Shown in pieces: positions 32,897 through 41,619 of a DNA stretch of 45,221 bases. The position numbers were made by a program, and so were the translations under genes. Location of the stretch: assembly GCA_030765865.1 (NCBI GenBank), contig JAVCDK010000098.1, forward strand, positions 1 to 45,221. The letters are read 5' to 3'. A model generated the notes under the pieces. It had not been told where the DNA came from. It saw only the letters and a list, made by a program, of their open reading frames with translations, and searched no databases. This DNA comes from Candidatus Celaenobacter antarcticus. Lineage in GTDB: Bacteria; Cloacimonadota; Cloacimonadia; JGIOTU-2. Within the stretch, counting starts at the first letter, position 1; each line of letters opens with the position of its first letter.

Positions 32897-35800
32897 ATGA
32901 AATTTATAGTGTTACTTGGAATGTTTATTTTGATGAGTTCAACCGTATTCGGAGAAGTGATCGAGCTTTCGCCAACCGAAACAATGGTGGATATTCTTAA
33001 TTATAATGAAAAGAGTGTTTCCATGCATATTTCGGTAGGTAAATTTGAGAGAACTATTCAGCAAGAAGGGGATGTTGCATTTGATAATCTTTTTGTTGAT
33101 TCGTGGAGCAGATTGAGAGAGGAAGGATACCCTGCATTGCCTTCCATAAGAAAGATGGTCATGGTTCCTGAAAACGGCTCTATTGATGTGGATATATCTG
33201 TACTGCACAGCACAGAATTTGAGAACATTCTTCCGTATCCAGCTCAGCCCTCAGCAGTTGATAATGATGCCTTTGATACACCTCCATTTACCTATAACGA
33301 GCAGTTCTATACTTCTCAAAATACCTACCCGGAGAAAATGTACACCATATCCGATGTGTACACAATACGAGGATTGAGTTTTGTATATCTTACCATAACA
33401 CCATTCCAGTATCATGCTTCAAAAAATATTCTATCCGTTGCAGAAGAATTTGAAATATCATTAAATATTTCAGGCAATTACGAATTTGATGACAGACTGT
33501 ATTCCAAATATTTAAGTTCAATAGTTATGAACAATGCAGTGAATCCTGTGTATGAAATTCCGCAAAGAAATCAGCCAAAAGATGTTGATGGTGCTGACCT
33601 GATCATTGTCACAACCTATGATTTTATGGATGCTGCAGAAACGCTGAAAGAATGGAAATCTCAAAAGGGATTTTATACGGATATAGCATACTTAGAAGAA
33701 ATCAGTTCAACGGCTTCGAATATTTATACATATTTATTTCTTGCATATGAAATTTGGTCTCTCCCACCTTCTTTTGTGATCTTTTTGGGAGATTCGGATA
33801 TCGTGCCAACCAATTATATTAATGATCAGCTTTCTGGCGGGCTTTTGGGAAGTGATAGACCTTACGCCTGTATGGACGCTGATTTTCATCCTGATATGGG
33901 GTATGGAAGAATCTCTGTAGATGATGAGCAGCAGGCATTTGTGGTGATAGATAAGATCATTCAGTACGAGAAAAATCCACCAACGCTGCCATCGTTTTAT
34001 GAAGATGTTGTCAACGCAGGATATTTTCAGGATGATGAACATGATGGGTATGAAACACGAAGATTCATAAAAACTTCAGAAGAAATGCGAGATTTTCTCC
34101 TTACGGAAAACTATGATGCCGAAAGGATATACGTTACAGAGGGTTCTGTGAATCCGACTAATTATAATAATGGATACTATGCCAATGGAGGACCGATTCC
34201 AGATGAATTGCTGAGAGCCAACGGTTTTCCATGGAACGGCAGTGCAACCGACATCACAAATGCGATCAACACAGGTATTTTTATGTTAACACATCGTGAT
34301 CACGGTTATACGGCAGGTTGGGGAGATCCTGCATACAGTATCAACAATGTCTTGCAGCTTACAAATGGAGAACTTGTTCCAATGGTGTTCAGCATTAACT
34401 GCCAGACTGGGTGGTTTGACAGTGAAACAGATACTGATCCAGGACCGTCTTTCGAATGTTTCTGTGAAGAATTTCTTCGCAAAGGAAATGGGGGAGCGGT
34501 AAGCACAATCGGAGCTTGCAGGAATTCTTTAAGCGGGTATAATGATTTCCTTGCACTTGGAATGATCGATGGAATGTGGAATAATTTCCTTCCAAGTTTT
34601 GGCTTTGATACAAATGGCTATCTCGGTTATGTCCTTTATAACGGACTGCTCGCGATGGAAGAGATGTGGGGAGGAAATTCTACGGAATATGAATTCAATA
34701 TCTTTCATGTAATTGGTGATCCCACAATTCAAATCTGGCGGGAGCAGCCCCAGGAAATCACAGCAACTCACGATCTCAGCTTTACCTATGATATTACTTC
34801 TATTCCAATTACGACTAATATTAATGAAGGAATTGCTTCTCTTGTGGTGGATGGTGAGCTTGTAGGAAAAGCAGAATTTACTTCTTCATCTTTTGATCTT
34901 TACCTGTCCGAATCCTTAGCTACACCTCAAACGGGAACAATTACAATAACTGCCCGTGATCATCAACCCTATATTCAATCTGTGACATTCATTCCACCAA
35001 ATGGGAGTTTTGTAATTATCGATAATTTCTCAATTTCTGATATAAACGGAAATGACGATGGAGAATGGGATGCAGGGGAAGAAATTGTCTTGACCTATAA
35101 TATGACTAATGTGGGTAATGAACCAGCTGATACTGTTGATGTTGTGATTAATACTGATGAAAACTATTTAGTTATCGATCAACCACTCACAAAAATTATC
35201 GGTTTAGCACCGGGTGAATCTACAAGCTATAGTACAGATGCCCAGATTTCAATGGATTGTACTAATAACCAGAAAATCACTGTAGAGGCAATAGTAAGTA
35301 ATCTTGAAGTAGATTTTATAGATGTTCAGAATTTCTACGTTGTCAAGCTGCCGAAGATCCTACTGCCTGTAGATTCAGTCTATTATGTAGTATATGACAA
35401 TTCAGTAGTAAGTATACCCTTTGAGATTCAGAACATTGGCGCTGATACGCTGCGATGCAAACTGACCAATCATTCGCATCAATGTGCCGATATATCCGAA
35501 AATGCTTCCTATCTTACTATCCCTCATGTGGTTGAATTCGACAGTCTGAGCCAGCTTACATTAACGATGTGGTTAAAACTCAGCCAGATCTCACAACCAG
35601 GATTTATATTAAACAAAGGTGTGATCAACGGAGATTTGAGTTTCACAATATCAATGACAAACAGCTCAACGTTGTTATACAAATTCAGAAACGCATCAGG
35701 TACAGACTTTCAGAAAATTGTGAGCTTGGATGTAGCGTTTGATGAATGGTTCAATCTCGCAATTGTTGTTGATGAAACCTCTATTACATCCTATCTGAAT

Positions 35801-36589
35801 GGTGACCTGCTCGAAACTGACAATTTCACCTCACCGATTTATTCGACATCTACAGATATATTAGTAGGATCCTACGTGAATTCCGTGTATGAATTTAATG
35901 GGTATATTGACGAGCTCGGAATCTATACTGAAGCTTTAACCCAGAATGAATTGCAGGGCATTATCTGTTCAACTGTAAGAGAAAATACACCAGCCCTGCT
36001 CAGTTATTACAAGTTTGATAGTGATACGGAAATCCTTGATTATACAGGTTATAATGATGCGATTCCGGAAGGTGCAGTATCATTTAATGAGGCGGGAGCT
36101 CCTGTAATGACCTGGTTTGGTTTTAACTGTTTGGAGTTAGTTGTAGAACCTTATCAAAATTTAGTTATGGATATCTCTTTTAATACTCTTGGATATGATC
36201 CACAACTATTTTCATCAAGCATGGAAATTACATCCAATGCAGAGAACAGAAGCGATGTGCTGATACCGATAGAGCTACTGTACGAGCCCTATAGTGTTGA
36301 TAATAATAATGTGAACGGTGCTTTCTCGGTTATCTATTCAAATCCTTACTCACCCAACGATGAAATACAATTCAGTCTGAAAACCCAACAGCATATTTCT
36401 GTGGATATCTACAATATTAAGGGACAGTTTGTAACAAATATCGTCGATGATATGTTGGCGCCCCAGTACTATTCTTATCAGTGGAATGGGAAAGATCACT
36501 TGGGCAGAACTGTAGAAAATGGTATATATTTCATTAGAATAAATGCCGAAGAGAGTACGAATTTCAAGAAAATGATCTTCCTGAGATAA
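32897..36589 (+). CDS. C25 (gingipain-like) peptidase with LamG-like domain and C-terminal sorting module
   Basis: Putative catalytic LTHRDHGYTAGWG and SINCQTGWFD; NDDGEWDAGEE module; LamG-like LTLTMWLKLSQ...YIDELGIYTEALTQNELQGI; C-terminus YSNPYSP...VDIYNIKGQFVTNI...ENGIYFIRINAEESTNFKKMIFLR. Confidence 0.88.
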   Translation: MKFIVLLGMFILMSSTVFGEVIELSPTETMVDILNYNEKSVSMHISVGKFERTIQQEGDVAFDNLFVDSWSRLREEGYPALPSIRKMVMVPENGSIDVDISVLHSTEFENILPYPAQPSAVDNDAFDTPPFTYNEQFYTSQNTYPEKMYTISDVYTIRGLSFVYLTITPFQYHASKNILSVAEEFEISLNISGNYEFDDRLYSKYLSSIVMNNAVNPVYEIPQRNQPKDVDGADLIIVTTYDFMDAAETLKEWKSQKGFYTDIAYLEEISSTASNIYTYLFLAYEIWSLPPSFVIFLGDSDIVPTNYINDQLSGGLLGSDRPYACMDADFHPDMGYGRISVDDEQQAFVVIDKIIQYEKNPPTLPSFYEDVVNAGYFQDDEHDGYETRRFIKTSEEMRDFLLTENYDAERIYVTEGSVNPTNYNNGYYANGGPIPDELLRANGFPWNGSATDITNAINTGIFMLTHRDHGYTAGWGDPAYSINNVLQLTNGELVPMVFSINCQTGWFDSETDTDPGPSFECFCEEFLRKGNGGAVSTIGACRNSLSGYNDFLALGMIDGMWNNFLPSFGFDTNGYLGYVLYNGLLAMEEMWGGNSTEYEFNIFHVIGDPTIQIWREQPQEITATHDLSFTYDITSIPITTNINEGIASLVVDGELVGKAEFTSSSFDLYLSESLATPQTGTITITARDHQPYIQSVTFIPPNGSFVIIDNFSISDINGNDDGEWDAGEEIVLTYNMTNVGNEPADTVDVVINTDENYLVIDQPLTKIIGLAPGESTSYSTDAQISMDCTNNQKITVEAIVSNLEVDFIDVQNFYVVKLPKILLPVDSVYYVVYDNSVVSIPFEIQNIGADTLRCKLTNHSHQCADISENASYLTIPHVVEFDSLSQLTLTMWLKLSQISQPGFILNKGVINGDLSFTISMTNSSTLLYKFRNASGTDFQKIVSLDVAFDEWFNLAIVVDETSITSYLNGDLLETDNFTSPIYSTSTDILVGSYVNSVYEFNGYIDELGIYTEALTQNELQGIICSTVRENTPALLSYYKFDSDTEILDYTGYNDAIPEGAVSFNEAGAPVMTWFGFNCLELVVEPYQNLVMDISFNTLGYDPQLFSSSMEITSNAENRSDVLIPIELLYEPYSVDNNNVNGAFSVIYSNPYSPNDEIQFSLKTQQHISVDIYNIKGQFVTNIVDDMLAPQYYSYQWNGKDHLGRTVENGIYFIRINAEESTNFKKMIFLR

Positions 36590-36595
36590 TGTAAA

Positions 36596-39079
36596 ATGGC
36601 AATGGCAACGAAAACAAATAAATTTTTAGTACTTTTTTGTAGTATATGTTTGTTTATTCCACTTGCTCTTTCCGCAGTTCAGAATACTTCGCTTCTTGAT
36701 TCTCTCATGATTTCAGGAAAAGAAAACTATGAAAGTGGACGATCTGACCATGCGATATTTATTCTTTTGCGTGCTCAGGAATTAGCAGAAAACCTTCAAG
36801 ATATTGAGCAATTACAATCGATTGATAGATTACTTGCTGAAATTTATGAAGAGCAAGGAGATTACCAATCGGCAAATATATACTTAAGGAAACTTCAGAA
36901 CATACAGGATAGTCTGTCTCTTCTGCAATCAGGACAGATACTTTATTATGAAGATGATGAGACGAGGCTGATAAGGCATCAACAGTATATCGAAAAATTT
37001 GAAATAGATAAAACAAATCAGCTCACCCTGTTTTTTATTATTCTTGTTGTAATACTAATTGCAGCAGGATTAATCATAATCAAACGAGAAAAGCTTTCGA
37101 AAAATCGCATGAGACGGATTATCGATGAACAGACCCAAAGCTTGAAAGAAAGCAATCTTCAACTTGAAAAGGAAATGAAAGAAAAGGGTATTAATGGGGA
37201 GAAATTCAGAACGATATTTAACTCATCTACTGATTCGATATTTATTCATGATTTAAAAGATTTAAGTATTATAGATGTTAATGATAGATCTTGCGAATTA
37301 TATGGTTACACAAGGGAAGAATTCAAGCAGCTTACAATTGATGATCTATCTTCAACTTCAATGCTTTCTGTGGATTCACCCGAGGCAAAGTTGTATCTCG
37401 AAAAAATGTTAAATGGGGAAGTGATTTTTAAAGAATGGGAAGCGAAAAAAAAGAATGGCAAAAAATTTTGGCAGGATATACAGGCAAAAATATCATTAAT
37501 TGATGGGGAACAAAGGATGTTGATTTTCGCAAGAGATATCACAGAACGCAAAAAAGCTGCGATGAAATTGAAAGAAAGTCAGGAACGTTACAAACAATTA
37601 ATTGATAACTCCCCTTCGTTGATACTGGAAGTTGATGTAGAAACGTTTAAGATTATAAGTTGTAATCCAGCAATGGCGAAAAGTTTTGGTATTACTGTAA
37701 ATAAAATCATTGGAAATGATATTAGAAAATTACTTCCAGGGGAAATATTTAAAAGCAGAATGGCAGTTGTTCGGAAAGCTTTGGAAGAAAATAATGTTAT
37801 AGTATTTGAAGATTACAATAAAGGGCGATTCTTTTACAACACGTTTATACCATTAGTATTATCTAATAGAAAGACTTTTCAAATAGTTTCGTATGATATC
37901 ACCGAGAGAAAACATACTGAAATTGCGCTCAAAGAAAGAGAAGCTTTGCTTCAATCAATGATCTTCAGTATACCCCTCCAATTTTATGCCTATGGTAGAG
38001 ATGGTAAAATATTCATGCAAAGTGAGCGATCACTTAACAAGTTGGGTAATCTGTTTGGTATGAGAATTGACGATTTACCAATTGATGAATCCTTAAAAAA
38101 ATTATGGAATAAGTGGGTGAATTCAGCTTATGCAGGCAATGAAGTAGAAGGCAACTTCGATATTTATATAAATGATGAACTTCATCACATGAAAACCATT
38201 ATAGCTCCCATAAAAAAGGAAAATGAAATAATTGGAGTTTTGGGAACAGATATCGATATTACTGAGATGAAAGAGAATGAGAAAAAATTACTGATGACCA
38301 AAGATGATCTGGAAAACATGGTGAGAGCTGAAGTTGAAAAAAGAAAAACTCAACAAGAACTTCTAATCCAGAAATCTAAGCTGGAATCCCTTGGGCAACT
38401 TGCTGCAGGTATTGCTCATGAGATCAATCAGCCGATTGGGTTGATAGCATTGGGGTTAGATAATATTTATGAAAAATTTAAATCCGGAAGTGACGTTTCT
38501 GAAAAGTATCTGAAGGAAAAAATTGATAAATTTTTCAAATATATTGAACGAATTCACCAGATAATTGATCATATAGGCACATTCTCCAGAGACCAGAAGG
38601 ATATAACTTATGACGAAGTGAATATCAATAATGTAATAGAACAAGCTCTATCAATGATCGGGATGCAATATGGGGATCATGACATTCATTTTGATACTCA
38701 TCTTAGTGAAAATCTTCCAATGATACTGGGCAACTCATTCAAGATTGAACAGGTTCTCCTTAATCTTTTATCAAATTCTCACGATGCTCTGGAAGCTAAA
38801 ATGAATGATGGGATAGAATTCCAAAAAACAATAACAATTAAAACATTCAAAAAGGGGAAATATATAATTGTTGAATTCGCTGATAACGGAATTGGCATGA
38901 TCTCCAGAGAGATAGAAAGAATTTTTGATCCCTTCTATACAACAAAAGAACCAGAAGTAGGAACAGGATTAGGATTATCCATTTCTTATGGTATTCTTGA
39001 GGAGATGAAAGCAGAAATTTCAGTAAAGAGTGTTCAAGGTGAATTTACTACTTTTACAATAAAATTTCACTCTTGTTAA
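36596..39079 (+). CDS. Membrane sensor histidine kinase: periplasmic TPR-like region, TM, three PAS domains, HisKA, HATPase
   Basis: TM LTLFFIILVVILIAAGLIII; PAS blocks ending ARDITERKKA, SYDITERKHT, GTDIDITEMK; H-box LAAGIAHEINQPIG; N-box NLLSNSHDAL; G-boxes DNGIGM and GTGLGLSISYG. Confidence 0.94.
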   Translation: MAMATKTNKFLVLFCSICLFIPLALSAVQNTSLLDSLMISGKENYESGRSDHAIFILLRAQELAENLQDIEQLQSIDRLLAEIYEEQGDYQSANIYLRKLQNIQDSLSLLQSGQILYYEDDETRLIRHQQYIEKFEIDKTNQLTLFFIILVVILIAAGLIIIKREKLSKNRMRRIIDEQTQSLKESNLQLEKEMKEKGINGEKFRTIFNSSTDSIFIHDLKDLSIIDVNDRSCELYGYTREEFKQLTIDDLSSTSMLSVDSPEAKLYLEKMLNGEVIFKEWEAKKKNGKKFWQDIQAKISLIDGEQRMLIFARDITERKKAAMKLKESQERYKQLIDNSPSLILEVDVETFKIISCNPAMAKSFGITVNKIIGNDIRKLLPGEIFKSRMAVVRKALEENNVIVFEDYNKGRFFYNTFIPLVLSNRKTFQIVSYDITERKHTEIALKEREALLQSMIFSIPLQFYAYGRDGKIFMQSERSLNKLGNLFGMRIDDLPIDESLKKLWNKWVNSAYAGNEVEGNFDIYINDELHHMKTIIAPIKKENEIIGVLGTDIDITEMKENEKKLLMTKDDLENMVRAEVEKRKTQQELLIQKSKLESLGQLAAGIAHEINQPIGLIALGLDNIYEKFKSGSDVSEKYLKEKIDKFFKYIERIHQIIDHIGTFSRDQKDITYDEVNINNVIEQALSMIGMQYGDHDIHFDTHLSENLPMILGNSFKIEQVLLNLLSNSHDALEAKMNDGIEFQKTITIKTFKKGKYIIVEFADNGIGMISREIERIFDPFYTTKEPEVGTGLGLSISYGILEEMKAEISVKSVQGEFTTFTIKFHSC

Positions 39080-39229
39080 AGAAAGGATCGTTACCTGTAA
39101 TCTTTTTGCAACAGCCGTCCGATATCGGTCAAATATAAATAACATCCATAAATTACAATATACTGGCAGGTTAGGCAATTTAATCAATAATTTTACAATA
39201 AAAGATTGACCGAAATCGAACAATTTGGC

Positions 39230-39286: not shown

Positions 39287-39303
39287 TTGGCACGGTAATT
39301 GCC
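39287..39303 (+). promoter_or_regulatory. Sigma-54 (-24/-12) promoter TTGGCACG-GTAA-TTGCC
   Basis: Matches the established consensus TTGGCACG-N4-TTGC with correct GG/GC spacing, just upstream of the pseudo-receiver gene. Confidence 0.85.
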
Positions 39304-39316
39304 TATATAATGCATT

Positions 39317-39664
39317 ATGGATGTTTCAATGAATATACTTTTAGTAAATTTTACAGAAGGCAAGCAGAAAGAGCTTGAGGAGTTCCTTAATACTCAAGGC
39401 TATAAAGTATATTTTGCTGATACCGATCTGGAAGCAGTTCAGATTCTCAATAATATAAACATTAGTGATGTAATAGTTCATCTTATTAAAATTTTGAATA
39501 TTGGATTGATAAATTATATTAATAATCATTTCTCTGATATTCGTGTATTATTGGTGACAAATAATTATGTTGAACAAGCAATATCCGTTATTAAAAGTAC
39601 TGCCTGTGAAATTATTCATGAACCCTTTACGTTGGCTGACTTTAGACAAACACTACAAAATTAG
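39317..39664 (+). CDS. Degenerate (pseudo-)receiver domain, stand-alone
   Basis: Aligns with the REC domain of the gene at 39755 but lacks the acidic pocket (LLVNFTEGK vs LILDDEKGY), phospho-Asp (DVIVHLIKI vs DVVILDIKL) and conserved Lys (IIHEPF vs FLTKPF). Confidence 0.75.
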   Translation: MDVSMNILLVNFTEGKQKELEEFLNTQGYKVYFADTDLEAVQILNNINISDVIVHLIKILNIGLINYINNHFSDIRVLLVTNNYVEQAISVIKSTACEIIHEPFTLADFRQTLQN

Positions 39665-39754: not shown

Positions 39755-41119
39755 ATGGAAGAACTCAAAATCCTCATTTTAGATGATGAAAAGGGATATC
39801 GTGAGGGGATCGAGGAGTATTTATTAACGCAGGGCTTCACTGTTTTTATGGCAGAGAAGCCCTCAGAAGGTTTTCAGATTTTAAAGGATGAACCTTGTGA
39901 TGTTGTAATACTTGATATCAAGTTGCCGGAAATGAACGGCATTCAGGTTCTCCGTAAAATTAAGAAATCCTATCCGGAAACTGAGATCATAATGATCACA
40001 GCACATGGAGATATGGAAAGCGTTATTGAATCCTTGCGATATGGAGCTTCAGATTTTTTGACGAAACCATTTCGACTTCTAAAGCTGAAGACAGCAATAG
40101 AACGTACAAAAAGATTCGTTGCTCTTCAGAATAGAATCACAGGTCTGAAATTCCAATATGATCATCTCATCTCTCAAATAAAGGATACTGACGGTATGAC
40201 CATAATCGGTAAGAGTAAGGCAATGCAGGATATTTTGGATTTGATGAAAAAGGTTGCGGGGACTGATAATACGACTATCCTCGTAACTGGTGAAAGCGGA
40301 ACTGGAAAAGAAATTGTAGCAAGAGGAATTCATACATTAAGCAATCGAAAAAACCGCACTTTTTTAGATATCAATTGCAGCTCGATACCTGACAATCTTT
40401 TTGAAAGTGAATTTTTTGGACACACGAGAGGTGCATTTACTGGTGCAATCGAACATAAATCGGGATATTTTGAGGTTGCTAACCATGGTACTATATTTTT
40501 GGACGAGATCTGCGACATGCCAAAACATATGCAGACTAAACTTCTCAGAGTTCTGGAGGGAAACATTTTCAGAAGAGTTGGGAGTAATAGAGATATCAAA
40601 TTCGATGTACGGGTAATATCAGCAACTAATCAAGATATTGATTCTCGCGTGAAAAATCATGAATTTAGAGAAGACCTTCTTTATCGTCTTAATACGTTCC
40701 GCATACACATTCCTCCATTACGGGAAAGAAAGGATGATATAAAGCCATTGTTGGATTATTTTGTGAAAGTGTATTCCAGAAAGTTAAAAAAATCGATCAA
40801 GAACGTGAGCAATCGCATCTATGATTATTTATTCAACTATGAATTTCCAGGGAATGTCAGAGAATTAAGGAATATGGTAGAGAGGGCTTTGATACTCTGC
40901 GACAACTCAACGCTGCGGATAGAGCATTTTACTCATATCGTAAAAAAAGCGCAAGAAACTGATGAAGATTCATTAGATCTGTCAATTCTTGAAAACAAAG
41001 AAAAAGAAATGCTCACAAAAGCATTAGAAAGATCAAATAATAATAAGACAAGCGCGGCAAAACTTTTAAATATTTCCCGTTCCGCACTGAATAGGAAGAT
41101 CGAGAAATATAAATTATAA
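39755..41119 (+). CDS. NtrC-family sigma-54 activator: REC-AAA+-Fis HTH
   Basis: VVILDIKLPEMNG, Walker A GESGTGKEIVARGIH, GAFTGA loop, LFLDEICDMP, NFPGNVRELRNMVE-type motif (EFPGNVRELRNMVE), C-terminal NNKTSAAKLLNISRSALNRKIEKY. Confidence 0.97.
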   Translation: MEELKILILDDEKGYREGIEEYLLTQGFTVFMAEKPSEGFQILKDEPCDVVILDIKLPEMNGIQVLRKIKKSYPETEIIMITAHGDMESVIESLRYGASDFLTKPFRLLKLKTAIERTKRFVALQNRITGLKFQYDHLISQIKDTDGMTIIGKSKAMQDILDLMKKVAGTDNTTILVTGESGTGKEIVARGIHTLSNRKNRTFLDINCSSIPDNLFESEFFGHTRGAFTGAIEHKSGYFEVANHGTIFLDEICDMPKHMQTKLLRVLEGNIFRRVGSNRDIKFDVRVISATNQDIDSRVKNHEFREDLLYRLNTFRIHIPPLRERKDDIKPLLDYFVKVYSRKLKKSIKNVSNRIYDYLFNYEFPGNVRELRNMVERALILCDNSTLRIEHFTHIVKKAQETDEDSLDLSILENKEKEMLTKALERSNNNKTSAAKLLNISRSALNRKIEKYKL

Positions 41120-41240: not shown

Positions 41241-41295
41241 CATTTAATCAATCCTAGTTCATAAAATCATTATTGATTATAATGATACGTACTGG

Positions 41296-41619
41296 ATGGA
41301 TATTCCTCTCACCCCAGATGTGTCTATTGATGATAGTGAGCAGCAAGATCGCATCACCCGTATCTATCCAAATCCCTGCACTTCATATACCGCAATTAAA
41401 TATTTCATGAAATTCTCAGGAAATGTAGATATCGGAGTTTATAACATCAAAGGACAAAAGGTTGTTACTCTAGTAAATGAGTATATCGAAGCTGGTTATC
41501 ATGATGTAACATTTGATAATTTAACAGAATATACTGCAGGACTTACTTCTGGAATCTATTTCATGAAATTAGAAACAAAGCATGCCTCTCATGTTGAGAA
41601 ATTCATAATTCTTGAATAG
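41296..41619 (+). pseudogene. Orphan T9SS-type C-terminal sorting module (likely remnant of a larger exported protein)
   Basis: RITRIYPNPCTSYTAIKY...IGVYNIKGQKVVTLVNEYIEAGYHDVTF...LTSGIYFMKLETKHASHVEKFIILE with no signal peptide; the frame extends upstream (SILVHKIIIDYNDTYW) to a TAA without a clear start. Confidence 0.65.

Follow-up and report, generated by a model that had tools for sequence, protein, structure and literature searches.

Directly upstream of a gene for an NtrC-type response regulator, a 45,221-nt stretch of Candidatus Celaenobacter antarcticus DNA (contig JAVCDK010000098.1, positions 1 to 45,221, referred to here as the window) carries a small gene whose product resembles a receiver domain stripped of its catalytic residues. 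This raises the question of what a receiver that cannot accept phosphate would be kept for, next to a regulator whose own receiver is intact. A preliminary description of the locus had seen in it a tandem duplicate of the neighboring receiver, retained as a phosphorylation-independent partner of the NtrC-like protein, such as a dimerization decoy or an anti-activator. The features on which the following analysis is based are listed in Table 1.

Table 1. Features of the locus in the window (positions in the 45,221-nt stretch).
Feature	Position	Strand	Remarks
Sensor histidine kinase	36596..39079	+	Pfam PAS, HisKA (weak), HATPase_c; TPR weak
Distal enhancer-like dyad CGTCCGATATCGGTCA	39116..39131	.	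Conserved in sister species
Proximal enhancer-like dyad TGACCGAAATCGAACA	39207..39222	.	Conserved in genus
Sigma54 -24/-12 promoter box TGGCACGGTAATTGCC	39288..39303	+	Conserved in sister species
Stand-alone degenerate receiver, putative kinase feedback inhibitor	39329..39664	+	111 aa from conserved ATG; 115-aa ORF opens at 39317
NtrC-type response regulator	39755..41119	+	Pfam Response_reg, Sigma54_activat, HTH_8; intact receiver
Secreted-protein remnant	41266..41619	+	T9SS sorting tail only; Por_Secre_tail E=2.4e-11

A receiver homologue with a degenerate catalytic site

The 115-aa reading frame described previously (39317-39664) is open and conserved and proved to be real, with orthologues of 84, 85, 74 and 57% identity in four other species of the window's genus, where the order small receiver/NtrC is the same; orthologues are present in MAGs named Candidatus Cloacimonadota. 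Translation probably begins at the fifth codon of this frame (M5), since that ATG is common to all five species of the genus and the sigma54 box upstream would place the transcription start at about 39314. The match to Pfam Response_reg (E=1.9e-4, 22 bits) falls under the curated cut-off of 30.2 bits; despite this score, homology to receivers is clear from profile comparison, the best PDB match of the family profile being the NtrC1 receiver 1zy2 (E=1.2e-9). An AlphaFold prediction, for which five sequences only were used, has the element order of a receiver at low confidence (pLDDT 58), and receiver structures match this model at a TM of about 0.6 with weak E-values.

Alignment places N11-F12, H55, T81 and E102 at the positions that hold D-D, D, T and K in a working receiver, so that the Thr/Ser position is the one left intact. 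The earlier reading of the acid pocket as NF and of the phosphoacceptor as His was correct, and so was the view of the protein as a phosphorylation-dead receiver. The assignment of His to the Lys position has to be amended: the residue is Glu102, which directly precedes Pro103, and His101 lies one position earlier. Identity to the adjacent NtrC receiver is 26%. The alignment between the two had been described as free of large gaps, which holds, but the family presented below lacks two residues in the beta3-alpha3 loop and one in the beta4-alpha4 loop, shared deletions that set it apart from the NtrC receivers.

An old family under purifying selection

Profile searches of about 125 Cloacimonadota genomes, followed by a re-scan of the fetched loci, yielded 24 stand-alone degenerate receivers, counting that of the window, from several families of the phylum. 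None of the 24 has kept the acid pair or the Lys, and 22 of them have lost the phospho-Asp as well, whereas the NtrC receivers from the same loci are intact in 18/18 cases; a loss confined to the window's genome is thus ruled out. The two members that retain the phospho-Asp, without acid pair and Lys (L085:4262-4615 and L083:5006-5335), are somewhat Osp-like and may possibly represent intermediates.

In the tree, the small receivers come together in a single clade, separate from the NtrC receivers (support 99/99), a monophyly that is supported but, because of long branches, not beyond doubt. Tree and shared indels rule out a recent tandem duplication. The idea of a tandem duplicate is also difficult to reconcile with the location of most members, after the NtrC gene and before a gene for a secreted protein. 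Judging from these comparisons, the small receivers are an old family in Cloacimonadota. Two further stand-alone receivers located before a large protein, L039:4857-5225(-) and L084:4131-4493(-), have intact catalytic residues; they occupy the same gene slot but cluster in the tree with the NtrC receivers and apart from the degenerate family.

Within the window's genus, dN/dS of the small receiver is about 0.16-0.28, far below 1, and the protein is therefore under purifying selection, in agreement with the previous proposal that it has been retained. Neither of the two results named beforehand as counting against that proposal, homologues with the D-D-D-K residues or a neutral dN/dS ratio, was thus obtained. 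A decaying pseudogene of a duplicated receiver might be suspected from the loss of all catalytic acid and Lys positions and from the intact receivers that L039 and L084 have in this slot. This reading is contradicted by the dN/dS values, by one open frame in every species, by the conserved promoter and start codon and by the deep monophyly, and we give it practically no credence.

Gene order and neighbors

The usual order in these loci is a TPR-type kinase gene, the NtrC gene, a gap, the small receiver gene and a gene for a large protein whose start resembles a signal peptide; several of these proteins have a type IX sorting tail at their end. Kinase, small receiver, NtrC and secreted protein follow one another in the window's genus. 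The kinase of the window, which occupies the same slot in the sister species, has an N-terminal TPR-like part, one transmembrane segment, PAS repeats and HisKA/HATPase_c domains with a HEINQP motif, while the NtrC-type protein combines an intact receiver (DD/D/T/K) with an AAA+ domain bearing GAFTGA and a Fis-type HTH. A second kinase/NtrC/small-receiver system, in the common order, is found in the window's own genome (contig C92, L029 2152-4829), and where a genome has two systems, it keeps two small-receiver/NtrC pairs that have diverged from each other. Upstream of the kinase gene, the window encodes a gingipain-like C25 peptidase (32897-36589) with a propeptide, a lectin-like domain and a type IX sorting tail; its gene ends 6 nt before that of the kinase, with which it is possibly co-transcribed.

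A sigma54 promoter with paired upstream dyads

Absent from the preliminary description were a sigma54 promoter and an enhancer-like pair between the kinase and small receiver genes, which make the small receiver a likely NtrC target. Across the family, a sigma54 box of the TGGCACG-N4-TTGC type precedes the small-receiver start by 12-46 nt, in most cases by 20-30 nt. Its score averages 13.6, versus 9.1 in front of 80 other genes taken from these loci, and strong boxes (score of at least 13) are present before 18 of the 24 small receivers and in none of the 80 control regions. The associated Mann-Whitney p of 7e-14 is too small because the family members are related; the difference is nonetheless maintained across the lineages. 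The loci had been found by protein similarity and not by promoter. Weaker boxes are those of L029, L074, L080, L081, L082 and L085. The gene for sigma54 (rpoN) is present in the window's genome.

Upstream of the box, most loci contain paired dyads 69-132 bp apart, which are 91 bp apart in the window; the proximal one is the sole exact copy of TGACCGAAATCGAACA in the window's genome. The pair given here for the window is conserved in sister species; the automatic best pair of the control scan is in this case an AT-rich chance repeat. Half-sites are lineage-specific, as exemplified by the pairs TGAACGATTTCGTTCA / TGAACGATATCGTTCG in L030 and TTCTCGTTATTGAGAA / TTCTCGTTTTTGAGAA in L025, a pattern to be expected of pairs that are each dedicated to their own NtrC. 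Dyad pairs differ from control regions at p=1e-8, and the sole control region with as high a score is the same stretch viewed from the divergent gene in L076. The sigma54 box and the paired dyads upstream of it make it very probable that the small receiver gene is the first one targeted by the adjacent NtrC.

Correlated divergence with NtrC and a possible role of the kinase-docking helix

Divergences among the small receivers correlate with those among the NtrC receivers (Mantel r=0.83), in line with the previously suggested tie between the small receiver and the neighboring NtrC-type system. When ten structural elements were compared, alpha1 alone was closer to the cognate than to non-cognate NtrC, with p=0.0002 when all pairs are used and 0.002-0.005 when each lineage is represented once, in a post hoc test on one element of ten in about eight lineages for which Bonferroni correction gives roughly 0.02-0.05. 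One lineage, L025, runs opposite to the trend. Being post hoc and one of ten, the alpha1 signal is to be taken as a lead and not as proof. Helix alpha1 is the element by which receivers dock on the kinase in Spo0F/Spo0B-type complexes.

The face used by receivers to dimerize looks different. Alpha4, beta5 and alpha5 carry no cognate signal (p of about 0.3 or more) and are among the least conserved parts of the family, and alpha5 is absent in a 104-aa subgroup (L027-L031 and L074). The alpha1 signal, its lack in alpha4-beta5-alpha5 and the missing alpha5 speak for a small receiver that binds the shared kinase rather than one that pairs with NtrC. These same data bear on the decoy or anti-activator of the preliminary description, in which the dead receiver would pair with the NtrC receiver or with the AAA+ ring and block oligomerization: the poorly conserved dimer face disfavors it, even though the best structural relatives of the small receiver are NtrC1 receivers and it is inherited together with NtrC.

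A further argument for a decoy comes from the psp system, where the first gene of the sigma54 operon encodes PspA, the protein that restrains the activator PspF. The small receiver occupies the same position as a sigma54 target, and would share with PspA the property of a first operon gene acting back on the activator. PspA is, however, a coiled-coil, ESCRT-III-like protein and the small receiver a receiver homologue, in which a Pfam search gave no PspA/IM30 match. Altogether, we regard a decoy as unlikely and less favored than a feedback inhibitor that docks on the kinase.

Comparison with known stand-alone receivers

Among known systems, the small receiver would work most like FixT and Osp. 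FixT is a single-domain receiver without acid pair that inhibits FixL autophosphorylation in a feedback loop (PMC7078487, PMC9430884); Osp, also a single-domain receiver lacking the acid pair, inhibits CckA, is activated by CtrA and works unphosphorylated (PMC9430884). The small receivers share with FixT of Sinorhizobium and Caulobacter the stand-alone receiver and the lost acid pair. They differ in their association with sigma54 and NtrC instead of the alphaproteobacterial FixLJ system, kinase inhibition being putative in their case, and in lacking the 4-Cys Fe-S motif of Caulobacter FixT: no cysteine is family-wide, with 0-3 per protein at varying positions, which rules out an Fe-S-binding FixT orthologue. 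With Osp of Rhodobacter the likeness would extend to control by the regulator of its own system, which is putative and read from the sequence for the small receiver, whereas Osp retains Asp51 and its regulator CtrA is not a sigma54 activator. The closest solved sequence relatives, the NtrC1-type receivers (1zy2, 1ny5), differ from the small receiver in having catalytic residues, longer loops and an output domain.

The location of the gene suggests another comparison, with PorX, also a receiver linked to type IX secretion. As a secretion adaptor, the small receiver would bind the T9SS motor much as the receiver of PorX binds PorL/GldL, and would couple expression to export. The next gene often encodes a large secreted protein, in several cases with a T9SS sorting tail, and the CheY-like domain of PorX does bind GldL, but this requires a phosphorylatable Asp (PMC10951265) that is absent in most members of the family. 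PorX differs besides in that it can be phosphorylated and carries a fused PglZ phosphatase-like domain. A GldL profile gave no match in nine Cloacimonadota genomes, but the control of that search likewise failed. Since such an adaptor would leave the cognate alpha1 signal unexplained as well, we consider it improbable.

A putative feedback brake on the kinase

The explanation that we hold, on balance, to be probable is that the small receiver, phosphorylation-dead and transcribed under the control of its own two-component system, inhibits that system by feedback in a manner similar to FixT and Osp. To judge from domain content, the neighboring kinase would phosphorylate the intact NtrC receiver, and activated NtrC, on the paired dyads, would drive RNA polymerase-sigma54 at the box before the small receiver; promoter and dyads are seen in the sequence, from which we infer NtrC binding and activation. 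The small receiver would then accumulate with the other operon products, a large secreted protein in most species and, in the window's genus, NtrC itself together with the secreted protein. By analogy with the known inhibitors, it would dock by alpha1 on the same kinase, be unable to accept phosphate and block autophosphorylation or the access of NtrC, so that the response is damped. Because the operon also holds NtrC, the loop in the window's genus would mix positive and negative feedback.

The promoter and alpha1 evidence would fit equally a positive adaptor or stabilizer, that is, a dead receiver whose binding to the kinase or to NtrC would make activation last longer in a feed-forward manner, and in the window's genus the probable co-transcription with NtrC has the layout of positive autoregulation. 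Yet the studied precedents of such build, FixT and Osp, are inhibitors; by this precedent the sign of the regulation would probably be negative, a brake rather than a boost, and a positive role seems quite improbable to us.

If the small receiver is indeed a feedback inhibitor, a broader and more tentative possibility is that receiver-like kinase inhibitors under sigma54 control arose in Cloacimonadota separately from FixT and Osp and form a class that spans the phylum. Each would serve a single kinase-NtrC pair and be the first product of its operon, before the large secreted cargo. Surface-protein operons would then carry a built-in timer, and the locus would illustrate a means by which large secreted proteins may be controlled in an uncultured phylum. 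The general question of whether dead receivers are a recurring brake of two-component systems on their own kinase also becomes testable: there are about two dozen natural kinase/activator/dead-receiver sets, most with readable promoter and enhancers, in which specificity can be tested by swaps. A text search, with most subscription journals outside its reach, found no description of a sigma54-linked family of dead receivers.

A candidate selenoprotein in the same operon

The operon of the window's genus also carries an apparent new secreted selenoprotein. The secreted protein encoded downstream of NtrC in three species, L020:289-2292(-), L021:354-2357(-) and L022:4386-6389(+), has an in-frame TGA in the same place, at codon 338. 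Homologues with one in-frame TGA were found in 42 of the 123 Cloacimonadota genomes searched, the TGA context being Y/F-C-V/L-G-TGA-G, i.e. CxxU, in the members examined. Among the homologues at loci L091-L110, two, L108 and L110, have TGC in exactly that column. About 15 nt past the TGA there is a strongly covarying SECIS-like hairpin with a covariation score of 0.61, versus 0.08-0.16 for slid versions, a value reached in 0 of 500 shuffles. Of the 42 genomes with TGA, 37 have SelB, as do 24 of the remaining 81 (p=3e-10), a distribution that partly follows phylogeny. These sequence features make the secreted CxxU protein a strong candidate for a new selenoprotein family, of which no description was found in a literature search that left most subscription journals out of reach. 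Compared with L020-L022, where the protein is complete, the window retains only the tail of the TGA-bearing gene, corresponding to the C-terminal T9SS tail. Elsewhere in the window's own genome, contig C1 (11124-11666) encodes a divergent homologue of the secreted protein with one in-frame TGA.
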